DNA from: Prochlorococcus sp. AG-347-K18
GTDB taxonomy: Bacteria; Cyanobacteriota; Cyanobacteriia; PCC-6307; Cyanobiaceae
Assembly: GCA_003281365.1 (NCBI GenBank)
Contig: QCCF01000003.1
Location: 1-64,000, forward strand
Direction of reading: 5' to 3'
Length of the DNA stretch: 64,000 nt
A program made the translations under genes and the position numbers. Positions within the stretch are counted from its first letter, which is position 1. The number at the start of each line of letters is the position of its first letter. Shown here one piece after another: positions 35,047 through 45,237 of the stretch. Under the pieces are notes generated by a model. The model saw only the letters and a list, made by a program, of their open reading frames with translations. It made no database searches and was not told the origin of the DNA.

Positions 35047-35213
35047 ATTTATAATAAGAAGCTGTCTAAATTTTAGATTATTTTTTAATAATATTCGATT
35101 CTGGAGTTGAAAAGATTAAATTAATCGAGAGTATAAAATATCATAATTCTTAAAAAATAGATATAACTTCATAGTTAATAATTGGAGTTTGCTTTAAAAA
35201 GCTAGTTCAAATT

Positions 35214-35528
35214 TTAACTTAACTTTGATTTTCCATAAATCCTCGCTTTTTCAATTCCTTTCTTAGCTAATATTGGAGTAATTACGTAACCAAGAGTTCT
35301 GGCATAGTCTTTTAATCTTGGCTCAAGATAATCAGGATTTAACGTTTTATAAATATATCCAAAAGAAAACCCTATCAAGAGATTACCAATAATTGCATAC
35401 ATCAAAGGAGTAATTGTTCTTCGAGTAATTGAATAGTAGATAAAGACAAAAGGAATAATGTGAGCAACTGCATATCCCCAGCCAGTATCTTTTTGTCTTT
35501 TTTTAAAGGCATCTTGTTTAGGAATCAT
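35214..35528 (-). CDS. Hypothetical membrane protein
   Basis: 104 residues from the ATG at 35528 (MIPKQDAFKKRQKDTGWGYA). A longer frame from a GTG at 35624 is rejected: it runs through the att-like duplication and repeat array and encodes low-quality sequence. Two or three hydrophobic segments (about 19-36 and 42-58) precede a basic tail. I do not recognise the family. It sits 19 bp outside the proposed left end of the mobile element. Confidence 0.5.
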   Translation of the reverse strand: MIPKQDAFKKRQKDTGWGYAVAHIIPFVFIYYSITRRTITPLMYAIIGNLLIGFSFGYIYKTLNPDYLEPRLKDYARTLGYVITPILAKKGIEKARIYGKSKLS

Positions 35529-35547: not shown

Positions 35548-35568
35548 ACGGAGAGGGTGTTAGTTGAG
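35548..35568. repeat. Left att-like site of cassette 1
   Basis: ACGGAGAGGGTG at 35548-35559 is identical over 12 bp to the tRNA-Ser 3' end at 39420-39431. It is followed by AGTTGAG at 35562-35568, which recurs at the same offset (+14) in the internal site at 36746. Confidence 0.6.
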
Positions 35569-35577
35569 ATGATTTCA

Positions 35578-35596
35578 TTAGACACTCTCAGACACT
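35578..35596. repeat. TCAGACACT-type repeat pair, left side of cassette 1
   Basis: TTAGACACTCTCAGACACT: two related octamers 10 bp apart. The same 19-bp unit recurs at 36613-36631 and 36705-36723, on the other side of the EcsC gene. Confidence 0.6.
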
Positions 35597-35625
35597 TGCT
35601 GGCACTAGTATTTTTGTAAATCACT

Positions 35626-35657
35626 AAAATTCCCCCAACATTTCCCCCAACACTTTT
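35626..35657. repeat. Double TCCCCCAACA repeat, left side of cassette 1
   Basis: TCCCCCAACA at 35631-35640 and 35643-35652 (12-bp period), inside a 32-bp stretch that is exactly repeated at 36549-36580. The first unit begins 83 bp from the att-like core at 35548. Confidence 0.75.
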
Positions 35658-35747
35658 TAGGCACTAATTTAGAAATATAGTAAGTTGTAATATAAGAGCA
35701 AAAAAGGTATCTTCCTGATTTCTCAAAATTTTTTTTAGAAATAAACG

Positions 35748-36464
35748 ATGAATTACTTCAAAGTAAATCAAAATTCGATGCCAAACGACAATGGAAATAT
35801 TAATTCGAATTTCAACGAAAATATTAATGACTTCTTTGATGTTATAGTTTCCAGAGCAGTTGAAGGATGGAATGCAGGTGCCTTTAAGTTTGAGTCGGCA
35901 GAGGTTTTATCAAAACATTATTTAAAAAAGTATAGAAAATATAATTATGATGAATTAATCGAAAAAGTTATTCAAAGTCAAGCAACTAGAAATTTTGGAG
36001 TTGGTTTTGCAACTAGTGTTGGAGGGTTTATAACATTACCACTACAACTCAGTGCAGGCATTGCAGGCAACTTGATAATTCAATCACGATTAGTTGCAAT
36101 TATTGCTTTGATAAGTGGTTTGGATGTGAATACTTATCAAACAAAAACTTTAATAAAACTATTAGTTATAGGATTACCAATAGAGCAAAGTCTAAGGAAT
36201 GTTGGATTAAAGTTTGGGAAAAAGATGCTTCTAAATCAACTAAATAAAATTCCTGCAAAAACACTTAGAGCAATAAATAAATTTTTGGGAGCAAAGATAA
36301 TTACAAAAGCAGGAAAAAAATCACTGACCTCGTTCGTTAAATTAGTTCCGATAATCGGAGCTATAATAGGTGGAATTATAGATTATATAGTTTGCATTAA
36401 TTTTGGCAAATACGCAGCAAGAGAATTAAAAAAGTGTATTCAAGAACAAAAGTTGCTTGCATAA
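35748..36464 (+). CDS. EcsC-family protein
   Basis: 238 residues. An N-terminal asparagine-rich segment is followed by a helical region with FGVGFATSVGGFITLPLQLS, then AGIAGNLIIQSRLVAIIALI (about 86-125), the glycine-rich core of the EcsC family, and a second hydrophobic hairpin VPIIGAIIGGIIDYIVCINF (about 205-225). EcsC proteins are membrane-associated; their biochemical role is unknown. It is the only gene of mobile cassette 1, bracketed by TCCCCCAACA and TCAGACACT repeats, which suggests it is cargo. Confidence 0.7.
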   Translation: MNYFKVNQNSMPNDNGNINSNFNENINDFFDVIVSRAVEGWNAGAFKFESAEVLSKHYLKKYRKYNYDELIEKVIQSQATRNFGVGFATSVGGFITLPLQLSAGIAGNLIIQSRLVAIIALISGLDVNTYQTKTLIKLLVIGLPIEQSLRNVGLKFGKKMLLNQLNKIPAKTLRAINKFLGAKIITKAGKKSLTSFVKLVPIIGAIIGGIIDYIVCINFGKYAARELKKCIQEQKLLA

Positions 36465-36533
36465 AATCATAAAATATAATCAAACTTTTTTATTTAAAAC
36501 TCGATAATATTAGTTACTAATCTTCTAACCCAT

Positions 36534-36580
36534 TCCCCCAACACTTTCAAAATTCCCCCAACATTTCCCCCAACACTTTT
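36534..36580. repeat. Triple TCCCCCAACA repeat, right side of cassette 1
   Basis: TCCCCCAACA at 36534, 36554 and 36566 (steps of 20 and 12 bp). Positions 36549-36580 are identical to 35626-35657 over 32 bp, 923 bp away, in direct orientation. Confidence 0.75.
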
Positions 36581-36592
36581 AGAGAAAAAAGG

Positions 36593-36723
36593 TCTGACAT
36601 TGTCTGAATTAACCTGACATTATCAGACACTGTTTTTAAGAAGAAAATACAATAATTATTGCGATAGCAGGAATTTACAAAAATTTTGACTCTAACAGAA
36701 TGCCTCTGACACAGTCAGACACT
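36593..36723. repeat. TCTGACA/TCAGACACT repeat cluster between the cassettes
   Basis: Degenerate TCTGACAT at 36593, a 19-bp pair at 36613-36631 (CCTGACATTATCAGACACT) and another at 36705-36723 (TCTGACACAGTCAGACACT), related to the pair at 35578. Units are 10 bp apart, one helical turn. The wider 36465-36862 gap has no credible gene. Confidence 0.6.
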
Positions 36724-36731
36724 AAAAAAAT

Positions 36732-36752
36732 CCGGAGAGTCTAGAAGTTGAG
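36732..36752. repeat. Internal att-like site (cassette 1/2 junction)
   Basis: CGGAGAG at 36733-36739 matches the core of the tRNA-Ser duplication (8 of 12 positions overall), and AGTTGAG follows at 36746-36752 with the same +14 offset as at 35562. The next repeat array starts at +83, again as in cassette 1. Confidence 0.45.
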
Positions 36753-36814
36753 TTCAGACCTTATCTGCTTATATGGGAACGATAGGGAATAGTAAACCAA
36801 CTCATAGTTAATAA

Positions 36815-36836
36815 TCCCACAACACATCCCACAACA
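36815..36836. repeat. Double TCCCACAACA repeat, left side of cassette 2
   Basis: TCCCACAACA at 36815 and 36827 (12-bp period), starting exactly 83 bp from the internal att-like core. It differs from the cassette 1 repeat by one base (A for C at position 5). Confidence 0.7.
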
Positions 36837-36862
36837 CAGAAGCCAGACTTAGTTTTTGAGAA

Positions 36863-39193
36863 CTATGAATTATGACTCCTAAAAAAAGAAATTAATTTAT
36901 TGAAGCCTGCACTATACATACTTTTACCTCTAACGTCTAAAGCTTTGTTCTCAGGCACAGATAACCATTCATTTTTTAATTCTTCTAAATCCTCATTTCT
37001 TACTAATTCATCAACAGTTGAATATTGAGGTTTCATTTTTAAAATCTCATTGGTAATTTTATAAACCGCACTGACATATTTCCCAACAGTACTCTCACTC
37101 AAATTTGTTTCTTTTCTCATCCAATCTGAAAATGGAGCATCATACATAAAGGTTTTTGCAAAACTCAACCTATTCCATATTTTTAAGTCAATATTTGAAT
37201 AAAACTCTTTTAGATTAATTGAACTAAATACTTCCTCATCTTCAATGAATTTAAAAATTCTTTCTTTTGGAACTTTTCCTTGTGCGATTTGTTGAAACTC
37301 AGCAATAATTCTCTCATCACTCATTCCTAAGGCAGATAACACTGTAATTATTTGTTTGAAAGCATTCTCCTGAACGGAACTATTATCTTCCCCCTCAAGT
37401 ACTATCGGCAAAATAATATATCCAAATTCTTTATTTTGGGAAACTCTCATTGCCCTTCCAGCTGCCTGCACTATATCTACCTTGCTATGCTTTGGATCCG
37501 CAAAAAGTACTGCATCAACTTCTGGGATATCAACCCCCTCAGTAAGGCATCTTGCATTAGTTATTAAACTTGGATCTTCATAAATAAATCTATTAAGTAC
37601 TTCTGATCTTTTCCCGGTACTATCTTTTCCAGAAATATGAAAAGAATGAACATATCCAAATTCTCCTCCTAATTTATTTACTTCCTCATTTAATTCTCTA
37701 AATTCCTTAGCCCTTTTTATATTCCTATGAAATGAGATTATGTGTTTTACTTTATGTTCTTTGATAATCTTCCTTAAAGTAATTAATGCTGCGAATGTAG
37801 AGGCATCAGCTTCAAAAGACCACAACTTATTACCAGCAGTAAGAAATTCATTATTATCAATTAATTCTTTTATCTGATCTTTATAAATCACTGTGGAGAA
37901 AATTTTATAATCGGAAAGAATTGGAGGTTTTTGTTCTAGAGCAGATTTAAATGAGAATTGATCAACAACTTTTCCATAAATTTGCTCATCATCCATTGAG
38001 ACAATCTCCTCAGAATCTCCTTTAAAAACTCTTTCAGTAGCTGTCATAAATAATCTTTTTGTAATTTGAATATTTTCATCGTAAAGAAGTTGTGCGAAAG
38101 GTTTTTTCTTATTACCTACAGTTTTATGTGCCTCGTCAAATATTCCAATATCGAAAATTAAACCTGAATCTTTCCCAGCTTCTATTATTTTTTTTCCACT
38201 TTGATAAGTAGTAATTACAATTTTTATTTTGTCAGAATCTTTTTCTAAGAACGAGGAAATTATTTGATTATCAGTATTAACCTCGATACCAATTTCAAAA
38301 GTATTTAAAGCTGGATCATCAAGATTTTTGACATCATCATCACTACAAACGGCAATCCAATCAATTTCTATCCCTTCACATAGAAATTCTCTAGCCCAAG
38401 TTTTAAGAGTTTGTTTTACAAGCTGTAAGCTAGGAACAATGATTATCGCATTTCGACCATTCATATATCTGAAAAACCAGTACCCAGTTAAACTTTTTCC
38501 AGAACCACAAGGATGTATTAGTTTGCCTCTAGATTCTCTAGAGAAATAATCAAGACAATTTCTCAGGGCTATCTTTTGATGTTCCCTTGGCTCATATTTA
38601 CTAAGTATTATTTTTTGATTATCTAAAATTGAATGAAAATTTTTAAAATCTTCATTATTGAGTTGGGAAAAATCTGAATATGTTAAAAAACCTAATTTTT
38701 CTCTATGAACATTTGAAATTTTCTTACTAACTTCTAACGCTGATGAACTTATAATCCGATGTCTTATTTTGCTATAAGTTATTTCTCTTTCGGTAATCCC
38801 AAAAAAAGTACTGACCTCATCATAAGAAACGTTTTTGTTTATATCCTCGTGATATTTGCATTGAATTGCCCAAAGATTCCCATCATTTGATTCAGCTATA
38901 AGATCTACACCAACTTCTGGTTTCTGCAAATCTAAACAATCAAATATTTGATTTGGAACATTGGTATGGTGCCAAAGATTTACTAATTTACTAGAAAAAA
39001 TAGGATTATTTACGAAATAAAGGGAAGTTAATAATTCGAATACATCCCCCTTTTTTTTATTATTTTCTGGACTTGATCCAAGTTGAGTTATATTTTTGGA
39101 AAACTCATCCCAATTATTTGAGGCAAAAACTAAATTTTTTGTTTCTGGTTTCTTAAAAAGATCTATAACTTGAATTGATCTTTCTGAAAGCAT
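36863..39193 (-). CDS. PD-(D/E)xK nuclease fused to a superfamily 2 helicase (restriction-like)
   Basis: 776 residues. The N-terminal Mrr-like nuclease shows D97 in GVDLIAES and QCK (111-113) in AIQCKYH. The helicase follows: Q-motif-like EPREHQ (201-206), Walker A GSGKS (230-234), DEAH (352-355), motif III TAT in MTATE, TEGVDIP (550-556) and motif VI QAAGRAMR (575-582). This matches the nuclease-translocase half of type ISP-like restriction enzymes, but no methyltransferase or specificity domain is encoded. Only gene of mobile cassette 2; a phage-defence role is likely but inferred. Confidence 0.85.
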   Translation of the reverse strand: MLSERSIQVIDLFKKPETKNLVFASNNWDEFSKNITQLGSSPENNKKKGDVFELLTSLYFVNNPIFSSKLVNLWHHTNVPNQIFDCLDLQKPEVGVDLIAESNDGNLWAIQCKYHEDINKNVSYDEVSTFFGITEREITYSKIRHRIISSSALEVSKKISNVHREKLGFLTYSDFSQLNNEDFKNFHSILDNQKIILSKYEPREHQKIALRNCLDYFSRESRGKLIHPCGSGKSLTGYWFFRYMNGRNAIIIVPSLQLVKQTLKTWAREFLCEGIEIDWIAVCSDDDVKNLDDPALNTFEIGIEVNTDNQIISSFLEKDSDKIKIVITTYQSGKKIIEAGKDSGLIFDIGIFDEAHKTVGNKKKPFAQLLYDENIQITKRLFMTATERVFKGDSEEIVSMDDEQIYGKVVDQFSFKSALEQKPPILSDYKIFSTVIYKDQIKELIDNNEFLTAGNKLWSFEADASTFAALITLRKIIKEHKVKHIISFHRNIKRAKEFRELNEEVNKLGGEFGYVHSFHISGKDSTGKRSEVLNRFIYEDPSLITNARCLTEGVDIPEVDAVLFADPKHSKVDIVQAAGRAMRVSQNKEFGYIILPIVLEGEDNSSVQENAFKQIITVLSALGMSDERIIAEFQQIAQGKVPKERIFKFIEDEEVFSSINLKEFYSNIDLKIWNRLSFAKTFMYDAPFSDWMRKETNLSESTVGKYVSAVYKITNEILKMKPQYSTVDELVRNEDLEELKNEWLSVPENKALDVRGKSMYSAGFNKLISFFRSHNS

Positions 39194-39280
39194 TTTTAAA
39201 AAAAAGTTAAAACAAATATACTCCCAACAAAATTATAAAACTAAATCGAAATTTACAACTTTAATAAAAAGTGAGCTCAA

Positions 39281-39323
39281 TCCCACAACACCGCACTCAA
39301 ATACCACAACAAATCCCACAACA
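39281..39323. repeat. Triple TCCCACAACA repeat, right side of cassette 2
   Basis: TCCCACAACA at 39281 and 39314, with the variant TACCACAACA at 39302 (steps of 21 and 12 bp). This copies the 20/12 layout of the right array of cassette 1, using the cassette 2 sequence variant. It lies about 100 bp inside the tRNA-Ser 3' end. Confidence 0.7.
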
Positions 39324-39419
39324 CAAAATAAGAAATTGAAAAGTTAAGACCAAATTTCTGGAAAATCTTCAAGTCTATGACTAATACCTAAGTTAAAATT
39401 TTCGGCTAAAAAATATTTT

Positions 39420-39431
39420 ACGGAGAGGGTG
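39420..39431. repeat. tRNA-end att-like site
   Basis: ACGGAGAGGGTG: the last 11 bases of tRNA-Ser (minus strand) plus one downstream base, repeated exactly at 35548-35559. Confidence 0.6.
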
Positions 39432-39505
39432 GGATTCGAACCCACGAACACCTTAATGTTAAACGATTTCGAGTCGCTCGCTTTCGACCACTCAGCCACC
39501 TCTCC
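39421..39505 (-). tRNA. tRNA-Ser (anticodon CGA)
   Basis: 85 nt on the minus strand. Acceptor GGAGAGG pairs with CCTCTCC, discriminator G at 39421. The anticodon loop CTCGAAA gives CGA, reading UCG. A long variable arm between anticodon and T-arm marks a class II serine tRNA. Its 3' end is the apparent integration target of the cassettes to the left. An AATATA on the plus strand at 39516-39521 (TATATT on the minus strand) may be its -10 box. Confidence 0.95.
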
Positions 39506-40019
39506 GTAATTAAATAATATAAAAAATCTTTATTCAGATCATATTTTTTTATAAATTAATCTCAACCTAGTTATTTCATTATCTTTATTACTTCCTATAT
39601 AGAAGAATTATTATCTATATTTTGTGAGATTAGTATGATAATTAACGCAATAACTTTTTAGAGATAAGTTTTTTTCTTCATTAAATGATTTAGTTGCCCC
39701 ATAACTGTTATAGTTTTTTAGCGAACCAAGTTGAGTTCATATTTACAGCATTCCAGTATATGTTATCTATTTATAGGGAAATTACTTGAGATAGTATTTA
39801 CCTTTGGATTCCTTCCACTTAAAATATAAACCTGTGACATAAAATTTTTTTTTAATATGGCACAGATTCGTTATTCATCTTTCTATAAAACTGAAACATT
39901 ATAAAGCACCCTTGGCGAAATTCTTTCACGGAACTGGTTATTGAGTCACTTTCAAGCAAATTAAAGATTTAATTAAAGACAGATACTATATAATTGTTAT
40001 GACTGCTATTAAGCAATTT
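39506..40019. other. 514-bp gap between two tRNA genes
   Basis: Divergent tRNA-Ser and tRNA-Ala flank it. I see no ORF beyond about 20 codons, no strong hairpin and no recognised small RNA; the G+C is slightly higher around 39900-39960 (GCACCCTTGGCGAAATTC region). A small RNA cannot be excluded. Confidence 0.35.
39989..39994 (+). promoter_or_regulatory. Possible -10 box for tRNA-Ala
   Basis: TATAAT 25 bp upstream of the mature tRNA-Ala 5' end. The -35 region at 17-bp spacing is weak (GATTTA). Confidence 0.35.
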
Positions 40020-40092
40020 GGGGCCATAGCTCAGCTGGTAGAGCACCTGCATGGCATGCAGGGGGTCAGGAGTTCGAATCTCCTTGGCTCCA
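40020..40092 (+). tRNA. tRNA-Ala (anticodon GGC)
   Basis: 73 nt. Acceptor GGGGCCA pairs with TGGCTCC, discriminator A. Anticodon stem CCTGC/GCAGG encloses ATGGCAT with anticodon GGC, reading GCC. T-arm AGGAG-TTCGAAT-CTCCT is perfect. No CCA encoded. No duplicated 3' end was seen. Confidence 0.95.
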
Positions 40093-40307
40093 TTGAAATA
40101 AAGTATTTCAACATTTTTTAGAAAATTTAATAATAATACCTGAAAAAGTTTGATCTAATCTTTTTATTATTTTAATGAATCAGAGTTTTCAGCACGATAA
40201 ATTAAAATCCATTTTTAAATAATGTATTTTCTAAAAAATGTATTAATTTAAAAATCCATTTTTTATGTAATTTTAAAAGTTATTATATAGTGAGAAATTT
40301 TCGAATT

Positions 40308-41375
40308 ATGAAAGGACGAATAAATTTCATATTTCCCTACAATACATGGGGTGGAGCTTTTAGATCTACTTATGTTTTAAGTAATTATCTTATAAATAAT
40401 GGCTGGTCTGTAACTATTACATTCCCTATAATTCCCCCACGTAATGGTTATAAAGTCTTCTCTAGAAAATGGATCTCTATAAAATTTACTGGGATTATTA
40501 GAAGTCTGGTAAGAAGAAATAAAATAAGAATGAATTGTAAAGCAGATATAAAGTGCGTACCATGGATAAGTTCTTTATGGCTTAAAGATGCTGATTTTGT
40601 CATCGCTAATCATTGGAATACAATTCATGATGTTTACAATTTAAATCAAAATTGCGGGAAAAAAATTATTTATATTAGAGACATTGAAGAATGGGCACAT
40701 TATTTTCAAGAAGAATTGGAGGCCTTTAGACTTCCAATCTATAAACTAGCCACTACTAAGTGGATAAAGAAACATTTATATGAAAATTACTCTATTAAAG
40801 TCAATAAAATAATAAGTAATGGAACTCATACAGATCCATTTATCCTTAAGTCGCCAAAGCCTTCATTAGAAGAAATTAATATTGGGATGTGTTGTGCTAA
40901 ACATCCTATGAAAGGGATTGAATATGGTTTAGAAGCAATTAAAATAATTAAGAAAGAAAATCCAAAGGTTAATATAATTTTATATGGATACTATAAACCC
41001 GAAAAATTTGACGTAGAGTATGAATGGGTTCAAAGTCCAGTTGGTGAAAAATTAAGAGAAACATATAGGAAAATTCACATTTTTATTTCCTCTTCTTTAC
41101 AAGAGGGTTGTCACAATCCGCCGAGGGAAGCTATGGCTGCTGAATGTGCGTTAGTAGCAACAAATGTTGGGTGCATTCCCGATATCGCAAAAAACAATAT
41201 TAATGCTTTAATAGTTAAACCTGGATCAACCAATGAAATAGTAAATGCTGTAACGGAATTGATCAATTGTCCTGAAAAAATTAAAAATCTTGCTTCTAAT
41301 GCTAAACAAAGAATCCTATTGGATACCTGGGACAGCAAAGTCTATGAATTTGAGTCTGTTCTAAATAATTTGTAA
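40308..41375 (+). CDS. Family 4 glycosyltransferase
   Basis: 355 residues from the ATG at 40308 (MKGRINFIFPYNTWGGAFRS), chosen over a GTG six codons upstream because the fold begins here. GT-B features: IANHWNTIHD, ISNGTHTDPF, MKGIEYGLEAI, then the donor-site motif ISSSLQEGCHNPPREAMAAE (E-x7-E). Transfers a sugar to a lipid-linked glycan in the cytoplasm. Just after tRNA-Ala, 5 bp from a convergent FAD enzyme, with 215 bp of AT-rich DNA upstream. Confidence 0.85.
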   Translation: MKGRINFIFPYNTWGGAFRSTYVLSNYLINNGWSVTITFPIIPPRNGYKVFSRKWISIKFTGIIRSLVRRNKIRMNCKADIKCVPWISSLWLKDADFVIANHWNTIHDVYNLNQNCGKKIIYIRDIEEWAHYFQEELEAFRLPIYKLATTKWIKKHLYENYSIKVNKIISNGTHTDPFILKSPKPSLEEINIGMCCAKHPMKGIEYGLEAIKIIKKENPKVNIILYGYYKPEKFDVEYEWVQSPVGEKLRETYRKIHIFISSSLQEGCHNPPREAMAAECALVATNVGCIPDIAKNNINALIVKPGSTNEIVNAVTELINCPEKIKNLASNAKQRILLDTWDSKVYEFESVLNNL

Positions 41376-41380
41376 TTAAA

Positions 41381-42442
41381 CTATAAGCTCTGAATTTTTT
41401 CTAATACTTGATCTGCAACCCAACTGCATGAATCAATCTTACCGGATAATATTTCTATATATTTATCATATTGTCTTAAGATACTTATCCTTTCATCGGT
41501 CTTTTCAACATTAATTGGAATAACTCTATAACCTCTCATAGAATAATCGAATTTACAGTCTTTAAATTCTGAAATAAATTCTGAACCATGGTTGATAAAA
41601 TCTTGAAATCTTGTATTTTTCTCTTCATATTCATCTATCCATGCAGAGGGAATATTTTGAAATTTTGATATTTCTGGCTCTAAGCCATATGAAGTTTCAT
41701 ATATGGCTTTTTTGACATTTCCCAAAACTGAATAATTTGTATCAGGGATAGGATCAATACACATAAATGGGCCATCAATTATAACAATACTTGAATTAGA
41801 TAAAGAAGGAGGTGGAGTTACTACAAGTTTCTCAACTAACTGATATTTATAATTTTTTTGCAATTGTACTGGCATAAGTTTAGAAGTTAAACCATAGCCA
41901 CAATAAATAATTAAATCATAATTATTAGCATCATCTTTTTTAAATTTTGTATTTAATTTTAAATTAATTAAGGTATTACTTTTTAATCTTTCTTCAACTA
42001 TTTTTTTTAACTTTTTATAATTTATTAAATGTTCATCTGCTTTAACTATCAGAGCAAATTTTTTATTTATCAAATTAGGATGTGAATCAATAATTTCATA
42101 TTTCAATGAATGTCTATTCAAAAAAGAAAGATACTCTTCTTTATCTACAAGTGACTTTTCCTTAGCTATAGCGTATAAATGAGTATATTTTTTTTCTATA
42201 GCATCAAAATATTCATCAACAAATCTTGGATATGAAGTAAGTAATTGATTTATAGTTTTATCTGATCTTGGGTAATGATAACCTTTATGAAGTCTATATT
42301 GATTTACTCTAGACGCGCGACTCATTATTGACTCATTTACCTCAAATAAGCTGCAACTATAACCTTTATTTGCAAGTCTTAATGTAATAGTACATCCAAA
42401 TATTCCTGCACCAATTACAGCGATTCTTTTCTGACTAATCAT
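41381..42442 (-). CDS. FAD-dependent amino-acid-oxidase-type oxidoreductase (DAO family)
   Basis: 353 residues. N-terminal FAD-binding RIAVIGAGIFGCTITLRLA, then RVNQYRLHKGYHYPRS, a motif of DAO-like enzymes in surface clusters. The substrate is unknown; an amine or hydroxy group on a sugar is plausible. It overlaps the upstream Gfo/Idh gene by 4 bp, and the two form a divergent pair with the nonulosonic acid operon. Confidence 0.72.
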   Translation of the reverse strand: MISQKRIAVIGAGIFGCTITLRLANKGYSCSLFEVNESIMSRASRVNQYRLHKGYHYPRSDKTINQLLTSYPRFVDEYFDAIEKKYTHLYAIAKEKSLVDKEEYLSFLNRHSLKYEIIDSHPNLINKKFALIVKADEHLINYKKLKKIVEERLKSNTLINLKLNTKFKKDDANNYDLIIYCGYGLTSKLMPVQLQKNYKYQLVEKLVVTPPPSLSNSSIVIIDGPFMCIDPIPDTNYSVLGNVKKAIYETSYGLEPEISKFQNIPSAWIDEYEEKNTRFQDFINHGSEFISEFKDCKFDYSMRGYRVIPINVEKTDERISILRQYDKYIEILSGKIDSCSWVADQVLEKIQSL

Positions 42443-43299
42443 TTAATTTCATCTAAAATTTTTAGGACTTTACAAGATATAAGATTATTTTCTTTAAAAA
42501 TATTATTATCTGAATAATTAAACATATCAATAATCTTTTCCAGAGTAGGAACTGAATTTTTTACTAAATATTTATCATCATCCATGAGTTTTTCTCTATT
42601 TTTAACCAGACTACTTCCATTTTTATAAGTTATTGATGTTACATGGTTTAAAAAGTTGGAATCATTAATTTTTATTGAGAAGGGTACTTTACCAAAAACA
42701 CCAACTAAAGTTAACTTTTTATCTTCTTTGTGAAATTCATTTAAAACTAAATTTATTGGTTTAATGAAAAATAATTCGGCAAGCATGTGAGGCAATAATC
42801 TCCATTCAAGACCTCCACCCTCTAACATAGGTTTTTCCCAAATTAACTCTATTAATCTTATCTCATCAAATGAATTGATGATTTTTTCTTTTAGCATTTT
42901 TGTTGTTTCACAATAATTAAATTCGTAATTTACAAATATAAGTTTTTTTTCATATTCTGCATTTAGGAGGATCTTATTAAATTCTTCTAATGTAGCTGCT
43001 CCAGGCTTTTCTATTAAAAATTTATCAGAAAAACTTTTATATTTTTCCCAAGCCGAATACATATCAACAGGTCTAACACATATTGAAACCAAATCGAATT
43101 TTAAATTTTCTTTTGTATTAATATTTTTTAATTTTTGAGATGAAAAATATTTTTCAAATTGTAAATTTATTTTCCCATCTCTTGTTGTATAGAATACATT
43201 CCAATCTTTTTTTAGGAATACCTTGGTCATTGTCTTAGCCCAATTACCAACTCCTGCAATTAAGACATTTTTTTCTTTAAATCTCTCTTTTAAGTCCAT
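42439..43299 (-). CDS. Gfo/Idh/MocA-like oxidoreductase
   Basis: 286 residues, shorter than usual (about 330). NVLIAGVGNWAKTMTKVFLK is the NAD-binding loop and EKPGAATLEEF holds the catalytic EKP lysine. The substrate domain is reduced, and its GGGLEWRLLPHMLAELFF carries a histidine where a catalytic one is common. Divergent from neuA with a 166-bp gap that probably contains both promoters. Confidence 0.72.
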   Translation of the reverse strand: MDLKERFKEKNVLIAGVGNWAKTMTKVFLKKDWNVFYTTRDGKINLQFEKYFSSQKLKNINTKENLKFDLVSICVRPVDMYSAWEKYKSFSDKFLIEKPGAATLEEFNKILLNAEYEKKLIFVNYEFNYCETTKMLKEKIINSFDEIRLIELIWEKPMLEGGGLEWRLLPHMLAELFFIKPINLVLNEFHKEDKKLTLVGVFGKVPFSIKINDSNFLNHVTSITYKNGSSLVKNREKLMDDDKYLVKNSVPTLEKIIDMFNYSDNNIFKENNLISCKVLKILDEIK

Positions 43300-43465
43300 A
43301 AATTTTAGACCCCAGAAAATTTAAATAATTATTAGATATTATCATTCAATGAATTAGGTTAAAAATTCAAACTTATATTTATTATAAATTTCTATTTTTC
43401 TTTTATAAATAAACTTAATTTTAAAAAAGCTTAAATTAGCACTAAAAATATGATTGAATTGAATA

Positions 43466-44176
43466 ATGAATATTATTTGCGTTATAGGAGCCAGAGGAGG
43501 ATCCAAGGGTGTCGCTGGCAAAAACATAAGACCTCTTTTAGGTAAACCTCTTATTGGTTGGTCTATTGAACAAGCACAAAGTTGCTCCCTTGTTAATAGA
43601 GTAGTAGTCTCTACAGATAGCTTAGAAATTGCAAATGTTGCTCGAAATTTTAATGCTGATGTACCTTTCATAAGGCCAAATTATTTAGCAACAGATGAAG
43701 CTGGAAAATGGCAGGTATGGCAACATGCTTTAAAACAATGTGAAAATATTTATAAAGAAAATTATGACATTTATTTAGATTTAGATTGTACTTCTCCAAT
43801 TAGGGACATAGAAGACATTTATAAAGCTATAGAGCTTTTTCAAAAATCAAATGTAGATGCTATTTTCTCAATTTGTGAGTCCAGAAAAAATCCATATTTT
43901 AATATGGTCGAATATAACGAAGAAAAAAAATTAAAAATTGTCAAATCTTTAGGTGAATCAATTGTAAGAAGGCAGGATGCTCCAAAAGTTTATGATCATG
44001 TGGCATCAATTTATGTTTTGAATCCTAATTATTTGCGTAAAGGCAAAAATCTTTTATCTGGGAAAGTAGAAGGTTATGATATTGGTATAGATAAAAGTTT
44101 AGATTTAGATTCGGAATTTGACTTTGAATTGATAGAATATCTTATGAAGAAGAAATTTAAAAAAAATAATATTTGA
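43466..44176 (+). CDS. CMP-nonulosonic acid synthetase (NeuA/LegF-like cytidylyltransferase)
   Basis: 236 residues. ICVIGARGGSKGVAGKNIRP is the CTP-binding signature of acylneuraminate cytidylyltransferases, followed by VVSTDSLEIANVA, DCTSPIRD and an aspartate-rich end (GIDKSLDLDSEFDF) that binds metal. It couples CTP to a nonulosonic acid, the last cytosolic step of the pathway. First gene of the nonulosonic acid operon. Confidence 0.87.
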   Translation: MNIICVIGARGGSKGVAGKNIRPLLGKPLIGWSIEQAQSCSLVNRVVVSTDSLEIANVARNFNADVPFIRPNYLATDEAGKWQVWQHALKQCENIYKENYDIYLDLDCTSPIRDIEDIYKAIELFQKSNVDAIFSICESRKNPYFNMVEYNEEKKLKIVKSLGESIVRRQDAPKVYDHVASIYVLNPNYLRKGKNLLSGKVEGYDIGIDKSLDLDSEFDFELIEYLMKKKFKKNNI

Positions 44177-44196
44177 TTTTTTGATTAATTAAAAAA

Positions 44197-45237
44197 ATGA
44201 AAGATATTTCTAAAATTTGCTTAAATGTCGAAAAGACTGGATTAGATGCGTTAAAAACTATTGAATCTGGGGGTTGTCAAATTGCTTTAATTACAGACAA
44301 AGATTCAAAATTATTAGGGACAATTTCAGATGGAGATATTAGAAGATTTCTTATCCATGGAAATTCATTAGATGAAAAAGTTTCAACGATTATGAATAAA
44401 AAATTTATTTTCCTAGAAGAGGGGGAAAAACATAAAGGTTTTGAACTTATGCGGCGCGAACGTATTAACCAAATACCAATATTGGATAGTACAGGAGTAA
44501 TATTAGAAATACTTTTACTAAAAGATCTTATAAAAATTCCGAATCAATTAGAAAATCCTGTAATCATTATGGCAGGCGGAATTGGTTCAAGGTTAAGACC
44601 TTTTACGGAAAATTGTCCTAAACCTATGTTAAAAATAGGTGACAAACCAATTATTGAAATACTTCTTGAGAGAATTGCTGAAAGTGGCTTTAAAAATTTC
44701 TTTTTTTCAGTTAATTATCTCAAAGAGCAAATAATGAATCATTTTGAAGATGGCTCTAAGTGGAATGTAAAAATAAACTATCTAATTGAAGAAAAACCTT
44801 TGGGTACTGCAGGTTCTTTGGCTCTTTTGCCTAGATCAATTAACAAACCTTTTATTGTTATCAATGGAGATATACTTACTAAGTTTAATATTAATCAGCT
44901 AATTGAGTTCCATAATAAAAATAATTCTATCGCTACAATTTGCGTTAGGGAGCACGAAATAAAGATTCCATATGGAGTAATTGATTCTAATGGAATAGAA
45001 TTTAAACAAATACTAGAAAAACCAACCTACAGAAAATATGTAAATGCTGGGGTCTATACTTTTGATCCATTTGTTCTAGGATGCATTGGCAAAAATATGC
45101 AAATGGATATGCCTGAATTAATTAAAAAAATTAAAGAAATGGGCAAGAAAGTTACTGTATGTCCAATCCATGAATATTGGATTGATATAGGAAGACATGA
45201 AACATTAAAAGAGGCCGATAAAACATGGTTGGAATAA
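44197..45237 (+). CDS. CBS-domain sugar-1-phosphate nucleotidyltransferase (PtmE-like)
   Basis: 346 residues. Two CBS repeats occupy about 1-115 (ALITDKDSKLLGTISDGDIR and NQIPILDSTGVILEILLLKD); a nucleotidyltransferase domain follows with IIMAGGIGSRLRPFTENCPK and FIVINGDILT. The same fusion in Campylobacter, PtmE, makes GDP-glucosamine for legionaminic acid, so the pathway here probably uses a GDP-linked amino sugar. CBS domains may sense adenine nucleotides. Confidence 0.83.
   Translation: MKDISKICLNVEKTGLDALKTIESGGCQIALITDKDSKLLGTISDGDIRRFLIHGNSLDEKVSTIMNKKFIFLEEGEKHKGFELMRRERINQIPILDSTGVILEILLLKDLIKIPNQLENPVIIMAGGIGSRLRPFTENCPKPMLKIGDKPIIEILLERIAESGFKNFFFSVNYLKEQIMNHFEDGSKWNVKINYLIEEKPLGTAGSLALLPRSINKPFIVINGDILTKFNINQLIEFHNKNNSIATICVREHEIKIPYGVIDSNGIEFKQILEKPTYRKYVNAGVYTFDPFVLGCIGKNMQMDMPELIKKIKEMGKKVTVCPIHEYWIDIGRHETLKEADKTWLE

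Follow-up and report, generated by a model that had tools for sequence, protein, structure and literature searches.

Prochlorococcus is among the most abundant phototrophs and has a very small genome. We analysed the first 64,000 nucleotides of contig QCCF01000003.1 of Prochlorococcus sp. AG-347-K18 (the window), in which two integrase-less cassettes, one carrying an EcsC-family gene and one a nuclease-helicase gene, lie in tandem at the 3' end of a tRNA-Ser(cga) gene. The locus bears on how Prochlorococcus moves single accessory genes, several of which are here restriction-like or candidate defence genes. Among the closest described systems are the tycheposons (Hackl et al. 2023 Cell), which PMC10872708 characterises as large elements of 4-200 kbp with a tyrosine recombinase. 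As outlined in PMC10872708, PMC10187409 and PMC11389934, tycheposons share with the cassettes their occurrence in Prochlorococcus, the anchoring to tRNA genes, the carriage of cargo and a tyrosine recombinase (in the case of the cassettes, in integrase-bearing kin). Unlike the tycheposons of the PMC10872708 account, the cassettes measure 0.2-2.7 kb, contain no recombinase and in some cases contain no gene at all; of the tycheposon characteristics the two cassettes in the window show integration at a tRNA, have no recombinase and fall below the range of 4-200 kbp. In appearance the cassettes are reduced tycheposons. PMC10187409 mentions 'cryptic elements' in the tycheposon study, and these may include some of the cassettes. 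In our literature search no title or abstract opening described such cassettes, and the tycheposon paper may already do so.

Other described systems share part of the organisation. The cassettes resemble cis-mobilizable elements (CIMEs), as presented in PMC5704250, and the ssrA islands of Dehalococcoides without an integration module (as presented in PMC3146451), in that both attachment ends are kept, integration genes are lacking, accretion occurs in tandem at an RNA gene and the histories of cargo and ends differ. They are unlike both, as these sources portray them, in being single-gene or gene-less, in having arm repeats that bound the cargo and in occurring as near-identical copies in differing contexts. 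Both attachment ends are present in the window and a Pfam scan of the two cassettes revealed no integration or transfer gene; such genes have presumably been lost. CIMEs derive from an ICE or IME by decay, and for the cassettes integrase-bearing relatives were found. With integron cassettes and clusters of attC sites lacking integron-integrases (CALIN), as described in PMC11389934, the cassettes have in common the combination of a gene with a recombination repeat, the arrays, the empty platform and a recombinase that would act in trans. Unlike integron cassettes they are anchored to tRNA genes, and no integron integrase was identified (the genome of AG-347-K18 encodes only one PF00589 protein, of 389 amino acids (aa)). 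Integrons have attC sites that fold as single strands, and the cassettes have arm sites that are direct repeats. Finally, gene-less members of the family (201-281 bp) keep only their ends, like miniature inverted-repeat transposable elements (MITEs; about 300 nt without genes according to PMC11389934), unlike which these ends resemble the attachment arms of a tyrosine integrase at a fixed tRNA site and not the inverted repeats of a transposase.

The proposal of a first-pass annotation, made from the sequence of the window, that these are integrase-less, single-gene, tRNA-anchored cassettes is supported by cassette-free sites, by near-identical copies elsewhere, by a geometry that is fixed throughout the genus and by integrase-bearing kin. 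We consider it likely (probability roughly three in four) that the cassettes are minimal satellites of elements akin to tycheposons, that an arm-binding tyrosine integrase moves them in trans and that cargo is exchanged at the arm sites.

Boundaries and parts of the two cassettes

A search of the window placed exact copies of the 12-mer ACGGAGAGGGTG at 35548-35559 and 39420-39431, the latter being the 3' end of a tRNA-Ser(cga) gene (39420-39506, minus strand; ARAGORN). In the whole genome (1.57 Mb; G000 in our numbering, in which G numbers are genomes and L numbers fetched stretches) the 12-mer occurs twice on the forward strand, not on the reverse strand and not in a reversed control. The duplicated tRNA end and the tRNA-Ser-CGA anchor, both claimed in the first-pass annotation, are thus confirmed, no third copy being present genome-wide. 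Its further landmarks were also recovered, namely AGTTGAG at 35562 and 36746 and left tandem 10-mers starting at 35631/35643 (EcsC cassette) and 36815/36827 (helicase cassette), as was its single gene per interval. We also found right-hand repeats, absent from that annotation, so that both intervals are bounded at their right ends as well (36535/36555/36567 and 39282/39303/39315). The repeats read CCCCCAACA at both ends of the EcsC cassette (1,184 bp) and CCCACAACA at both ends of the helicase cassette (2,688 bp), and the pair motif CCCNCAACA-N3-CCCNCAACA (at most one mismatch) occurs genome-wide only at the four cassette ends, on a single strand (control 0). Each cassette is composed of a left attachment arm, two tandem arm repeats, a cargo gene, three arm repeats (one of them imperfect in the helicase cassette) and a right arm. 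The features are as follows.

35214..35528, minus: gene for a 104-aa protein, not part of the array; in three relatives its homologue lies right next to the tRNA
35548..35559, plus: left attachment core of the EcsC cassette, which repeats the tRNA 3' end (outer copy, exact 12-mer)
35549..35631, plus: LE-A, the left arm, with the first repeat 83 bp from the core (profile E 5.5e-26, own sequence in profile)
35632..35652, plus: left tandem arm repeats CCCCCAACA, two copies, 12-bp period (motif common to other elements)
35748..36464, plus: cargo, EcsC-family protein of 238 aa (Pfam EcsC 2.2e-9; PADLOC candidate defence family PDC-S29, 4.5e-49)
36535..36575, plus: right arm repeats CCCCCAACA, three copies, spacings 20 and 12 (from sequence)
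36576..36732, plus: right arm RE-A (profile E 1.1e-53, own sequence in profile), last repeat to core 166 bp
36733..36739, plus: junction of the two cassettes, CGGAGAG, type-B left core (identical CGGAGAGTCTAGAAGTTG in L086, L089 and L093)
36733..36815, plus: LE-B, left arm of the helicase cassette, with the first repeat at 83 bp (profile E 5.9e-27, own sequence in profile)
36816..36836, plus: left tandem arm repeats CCCACAACA, two copies, 12-bp period (pair motif search)
36863..39193, minus: cargo, nuclease-helicase of 776 aa (Pfam Mrr_cat_2, ResIII and Helicase_C; PADLOC REase_MTase_IIG 1.5e-82, residues 38-644)
39282..39323, plus: right arm repeats CCCACAACA at 39282, 39303 (one mismatch) and 39315 (from sequence)
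39324..39420, plus: right arm RE-B, last repeat to core 106 bp (also 106 bp in L086 and L089)
39420..39431, plus: inner core, 3' end of the tRNA gene (ARAGORN and exact 12-mer)
39420..39506, minus: target tRNA-Ser(cga) (ARAGORN)

The CGGAGAG at 36733 was correctly located in the first-pass annotation and wrongly taken for a decayed copy of the type-A core, since type-B elements elsewhere carry the identical CGGAGAGTCTAGAAGTTG. Position 36733 is a genuine boundary: its distance from the last EcsC repeat, 166 bp, is that seen at other type-A ends, and its core is the type-B one of L086, L089 and L093. The seven bases CGGAGAG, common to all three junctions, would suit the crossover region of a tyrosine recombinase.

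The insertion point was examined at sites without the cassettes. Homologues of the 104-aa flank gene are present in 18 other genomes (19 with AG-347-K18), and ARAGORN called a tRNA-Ser(cga) in the fetched flank of four of these loci (L234, L235, L236 and L241). In G039, G070 and G024 the homologue directly follows the 3' end of tRNA-Ser(cga), so that the check proposed in the first-pass annotation, for empty sites in relatives, turned out positive. The bases after the core are CAATAAAATATTT in AG-347-K18, CAATATAATATTT in G039 and CAATATTTAATTT in G070, which match as expected if 35548 to 39419 was inserted there; the G024 spacer is less alike. In G261 (L236) the tRNA and the 104-aa gene are separated by a 227-bp gene-less element, whose repeats have a period of 11 bp and lie 84 bp from the core. 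Other relatives have a second naive flank, and the elements of L067, L086 and L099 are inserted at exactly that base. Neither of the two outcomes that the first-pass annotation had named as refuting (relatives that lack the repeats and keep both genes at this position, or precise empty sites that never end at 35548/39420) was seen. That the tRNA fragment and the repeats are coincidental, and that the locus consists of two ordinary accessory genes, can practically be dismissed: 12-bp repeats may arise by chance in an A+T-rich genome (0.49 matches expected at up to two mismatches), and such an origin is contradicted by the genome-wide uniqueness of the motifs, by the cassette-free sites and by a geometry that is conserved in many species.

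A degenerate LE-B was observed beyond the 104-aa gene in G039 (L235, 1840-1925, E 1.6e-12) and G261 (L236, 1853-1933, E 6.8e-11). The resemblance to LE-B in the window of AG-347-K18 (about 35100-35215) scored 16.0, below the shuffled maximum of 18.5. Since the latter does not exceed shuffles, the 104-aa gene is put forward tentatively as possible cargo of an older type-B element, which would leave the insertion point unaffected.

Related elements across the genus

The layout of core and repeats was sought with other cargo, a check likewise proposed in the first-pass annotation, and this yielded a genus-wide family that includes gene-less elements. The exact pair motif is present in 25 of 266 genomes of the genus, AG-347-K18 included (reversed control 0); the other 24 were all fetched, and 23 of them hold at least one element end. 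A left-end pattern (at most one mismatch) matched 26 of the 266 genomes and added further elements, and a 22-base form of the motif turned up in 17 stretches among 84,980 species genomes, every one in a record with Prochlorococcus, Synechococcus or Synechococcaceae in its title. In 19 of the 24 the repeats lie 3' of a tRNA-Ser gene, mostly cga (gct in L066 and L094; tga in L092, L100 and L103), and the right arm abuts the tRNA in most; element-like DNA lies in between in L067, L089 and L100, and about 2 kb in L093. No tRNA was called in the stretches L068, L091 and L105. L069, where the tRNA-Ser is in the other orientation and the left core was not found, was kept apart. Both ends are not seen everywhere, as L091 is cut by a contig end and one end or core went unrecognised in L069, L093, L095, L100 and L104. 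Two candidates were rejected as elements: in L098 (G155) the motif lies inside an open frame as a coding repeat, and in G553 (L280) it lies within open frames.

Each of the 29 left ends that have a core, near-copies among them, places its first repeat 82-83 bp from the core CGGAG (or CGGAA). At the right end, the interval between last repeat and core measures 165-168 bp in CCCCCAACA/CCACCAACA elements at tRNA-Ser(cga) and 164 bp at tga, 106 bp for type B, 122 bp for the gct kind, 121 and 123 bp in two other CCACCAACA right ends and 141 bp in L095. A word-free scan of 126 distinct cores gave tandem repeats of 11/12 bp starting at 80-82 bp in 33-34 cases each, and two matches over all distances of 20-63 bp together; it measures geometry and not frequency, since the loci were mostly picked for holding elements. 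The resulting rule (core, 83 bp, repeat pair, cargo, repeat pair or trio, core) detects elements from the sequence alone, even when they are gene-less.

The cargo genes found elsewhere in the family encode HSDR_N, DUF4379 (a weak restriction endonuclease match), C5 methylase, YgjP metallopeptidase, DUF805, TPR and trypsin-like proteins, as well as several short proteins without a family match; restriction-like and candidate defence cargo recurs and is not the rule. A CCACCAACA-bounded stretch near tRNA-Ser(cga) (L284, 7044-9293) holds a C5 DNA methylase gene and a 297-aa neighbour, possibly a whole restriction-modification pair.

Eight gene-less elements of 201-281 bp were found in seven genomes (in L067, L086, L097, L103, L164 (two), L165 and L236; L095, with a degenerate left core, was left out of the count). 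They consist of a left arm, a single repeat cluster and a right arm, for instance the joined LE-A and RE-A arms in the 261-bp element of L067, and the longest internal ATG frame is 14-41 codons in the six that were checked. Such an element would be the remainder if cargo were lost between the repeats.

Near-identical copies and exchange of modules

The helicase cassette of AG-347-K18 is 98.8% identical over 2,700 bp to a copy in G050, another species, in which a 3.4-kb region around a shared conserved gene is 86.7% identical; in G050 about 7 kb of other DNA, starting with another left end, lies between the cassette and the tRNA. Similarly, a cassette with an HSDR_N gene is at least 99.1% identical in L091 (a copy cut by the contig end), L099, L101 and L102, the core-gene region of the four genomes being 91.6-92.8% identical, and the four cassettes do not share a left context, that of two being similar to right arms of other elements. 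CIMEs are mobilised in cis by a neighbour; the occurrence of near-identical copies beside unlike left contexts speaks for cassettes that move as units of their own.

Segment by segment, two of the pairs are chimeric, with breakpoints at the repeats. Compared with G253 (L068), the EcsC cassette is closely alike in the left arm (100%), the cargo (98.8%) and the repeat trio (100%) and diverged in the right arm (89.2%; 17 differences in 157 positions vs 11 in 1006 elsewhere, p 4e-9), and exactly after the trio L068 has an extra 442-bp module consisting of a 96-aa gene and a repeat trio. The helicase cassette, compared with G050, is diverged in the left arm (90.4%; 8 in 83 vs 11 in 2584 elsewhere, p 4e-8), with 99.6% identity in the cargo and 100% in the right repeats and right arm. 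The 96-aa module itself is 92.8% identical between L068 and L100, whose right arms, one of the cga and one of the tga kind, agree at 74.6%. The copies in L099, L101 and L102 are alike in every segment (98.8-100%), as from whole-element transfer. Since the EcsC and helicase pairs are chimeric and the latter copies uniform, ends and cargo are separable at the repeats and can also travel together.

The same chimeric pairs, in which one arm is near background (RE 89.2% and LE 90.4% vs 86.8% and 86.7%) and the rest about 99%, together with the failure to find a matching integrase in the genome of AG-347-K18, would fit an origin of the cassettes as decayed, immobile CIME-like remnants, spread by homologous recombination of arms or flanks after DNA uptake or transduction. 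We hold this to be unlikely, given that the elements of L067, L086 and L099 abut the naive flank at the exact base, that near-identical copies have differing left contexts, that the same kind of element is found at both tRNA-Ser cga and tga, and that the gene-less elements retain both arms, which neutral decay would not repeatedly preserve.

Under the preferred reading, satellites moved by an arm-binding integrase, recombination at the arm repeats would gain, lose or swap cargo, with products that range from gene-less platforms to multi-gene arrays. A more far-reaching version, which we put forward tentatively and rather doubt, is a two-tier integron-like system, in which single-gene modules would be added to, stacked on and removed from gene-less platforms (201-281 bp) exactly at the arm repeats, and a helper integrase would move the platform as a whole between tRNA-Ser genes and species; the arm sites would then double as cassette recombination sites. 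If the exchange of cargo at the arm sites is enzymatic, it would constitute a second natural route to a gene-cassette system beside integrons.

Integrase-bearing relatives and candidate helpers

Of 27 two-ended elements, 21 have no integrase (201-2,700 bp) and six have one (5.3-9.7 kb). In this tabulation element E3 was left out as mis-joined (its right end being that of a neighbouring type-A element), the right distance of E31 is 123, and elements with the same left end share one row, so that there is no separate entry for the L068 type-A element or for the L099 and L102 cassettes. The integrase-bearing elements overall span 5-13 kb and have the end layout of the cassettes. For instance, G025 (L175) contains at tRNA-Ser(gct) a 5.4-kb element of this layout, with the repeat word CCAACAACA, that encodes an AlpA-like regulator, a 426-aa tyrosine integrase, a serine resolvase and possibly a Rep protein (sub-threshold match). 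Relatives of its integrase are present in 22 of the 266 genomes, G025 included. A word-free repeat search found two repeats on the left and two or three on the right, ahead of tRNA-Ser or tRNA-Asn, in 11 of 24 integrase loci (L175, L207, L208, L210, L214, L215, L216, L219, L220, L222 and L223), the others having no tRNA in the stretch, no pattern or a different pattern. The distance from core to repeat is 82-84 bp in nine of 12 integrase elements (it was not obtained for L292). Alongside, L209 (8273-9279) shows a 1-kb integrase-less element with the repeat word TTATCCCCT that adjoins a 9.7-kb integrase-bearing element at the same tRNA-Ser(gct).

The layout extends to sister genera, where at tRNA-Ser(cga) an integrase of 421-427 aa lies beside the right repeats in L290, L291, L292, L298 and L299 (0.4 kb off in L299), with the left pair seen in L290, L291 and L292. 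In G483, also of a sister genus, the core is followed after 83 bp by CCCCCAACATTTCCCCCAACAC and, 12.9 kb apart, copies of CCCCCAACAC lie 124 bp before tRNA-Ser(cga). This element carries the repeat word of the EcsC type (CCCCCAACA), apparent type I restriction-modification subunits (judged from translations) and a 433-aa integrase with the domains Arm-DNA-bind_3 (4.7e-8) and Phage_integrase (1.6e-13), which clusters with other tRNA-Ser(cga) CAACA integrases (97/92 in the integrase tree).

On a tree of the 19 integrases whose repeat period was readable, this period (11 or 12 bp) changes twice, compared with a shuffled mean of about 4.5, a number as low being reached in 3-4 of 500 shuffles. That the period follows integrase phylogeny is the best evidence that the repeats may be integrase arm sites. 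Iterated direct repeats are also typical of iteron, cos or pac signals, and elements at one tRNA differ in their repeat word, as could be expected if the repeats served replication or packaging by a helper phage and not the binding of an integrase. This seems very improbable in view of the near-constant distance between repeats and core, the Pfam arm-binding domain of an integrase in elements of the same layout, the period that follows integrase phylogeny and the absence of matches for the cassettes in phage records and for the type-A repeat in viral contigs.

Mobilisation in trans is our best inference for the cassettes. A separate tycheposon-like element would supply a tyrosine integrase that has an arm-binding domain at its N terminus. 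This enzyme would bind core and arms, excise the cassette as a circle and insert it at the 3' end of tRNA-Ser, so that the tRNA is restored. Each further insertion at this end would displace older cassettes outward, giving rise to arrays. The cassettes would also be transferred from cell to cell. The rule of core, spacing and repeats ties the cassettes to a testable class of helper integrases and offers minimal substrates of about 260 bp for a recombination assay.

Several observations weigh against this reading. A matching helper was not found where the cassettes sit, since the genome of AG-347-K18 yielded no integrase with a detected arm domain (Phage_integrase PF00589 and Pfam scan) and the 25 genomes searched yielded no integrase inside a CCCCCAACA element; in G171 a weak integrase match lies near CCCCCAACA-type repeats, on the other side of the tRNA. 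G483 comes from a different genus, and beyond core and repeats its left arm shows no clear likeness (72.6% over 73 aligned bases, 20 gap positions). The integrase elements of L214 and L215 have a core-repeat distance of about 92-96 bp, and L218, with 12-bp repeats inside an 11-bp integrase clade, is the sole exception to the agreement with phylogeny. The chimeric ends could stem from ordinary homologous recombination. Finally, the search for a vehicle found none: the cassettes had no DNA match in 50,697 phage records and the type-A repeat none in viral contigs.

In searches with the encoded proteins, no viral match of the L175 integrase was confirmed, the helicase has a single distant relative in viruses (25%), and the G483 integrase gave distant matches only in phages, all below 60% (270 of 50,697 records). 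The 389-aa protein, the sole PF00589 match of AG-347-K18 (G000:C4:48516-48977; L116:868-2037), is not favoured as the helper, as it is encoded on another contig, has no arm domain that Pfam detects and shows no significant blastp relation to the element integrases. A match in a frame of this length is listed for 17 of the 25 genomes searched.

Other arrangements were also observed. In G050 a pair of integrase genes, equal in score and each with a 433-aa frame, is separated by 200 kb and lies on opposite strands (G050:C1:1090800 and 1290988), with no tandem CAACA repeats in the stretches read. Integrases lie 5' of the tRNA in L225 and L226 (tRNA-Ser cga), where ACACATGTAA repeats adjoin the tRNA, and in L181 (tRNA-Ser tga). 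Directly beyond tRNA-Ser the window contains (40019-45237) a tRNA-Ala(ggc) and genes that, judged from their translations, resemble glycosyltransferase and sugar-nucleotide genes; at other tRNA-Ser(cga) loci (e.g. L086, L088, L095 and L097) frames of 340 and 221 aa are found there instead.

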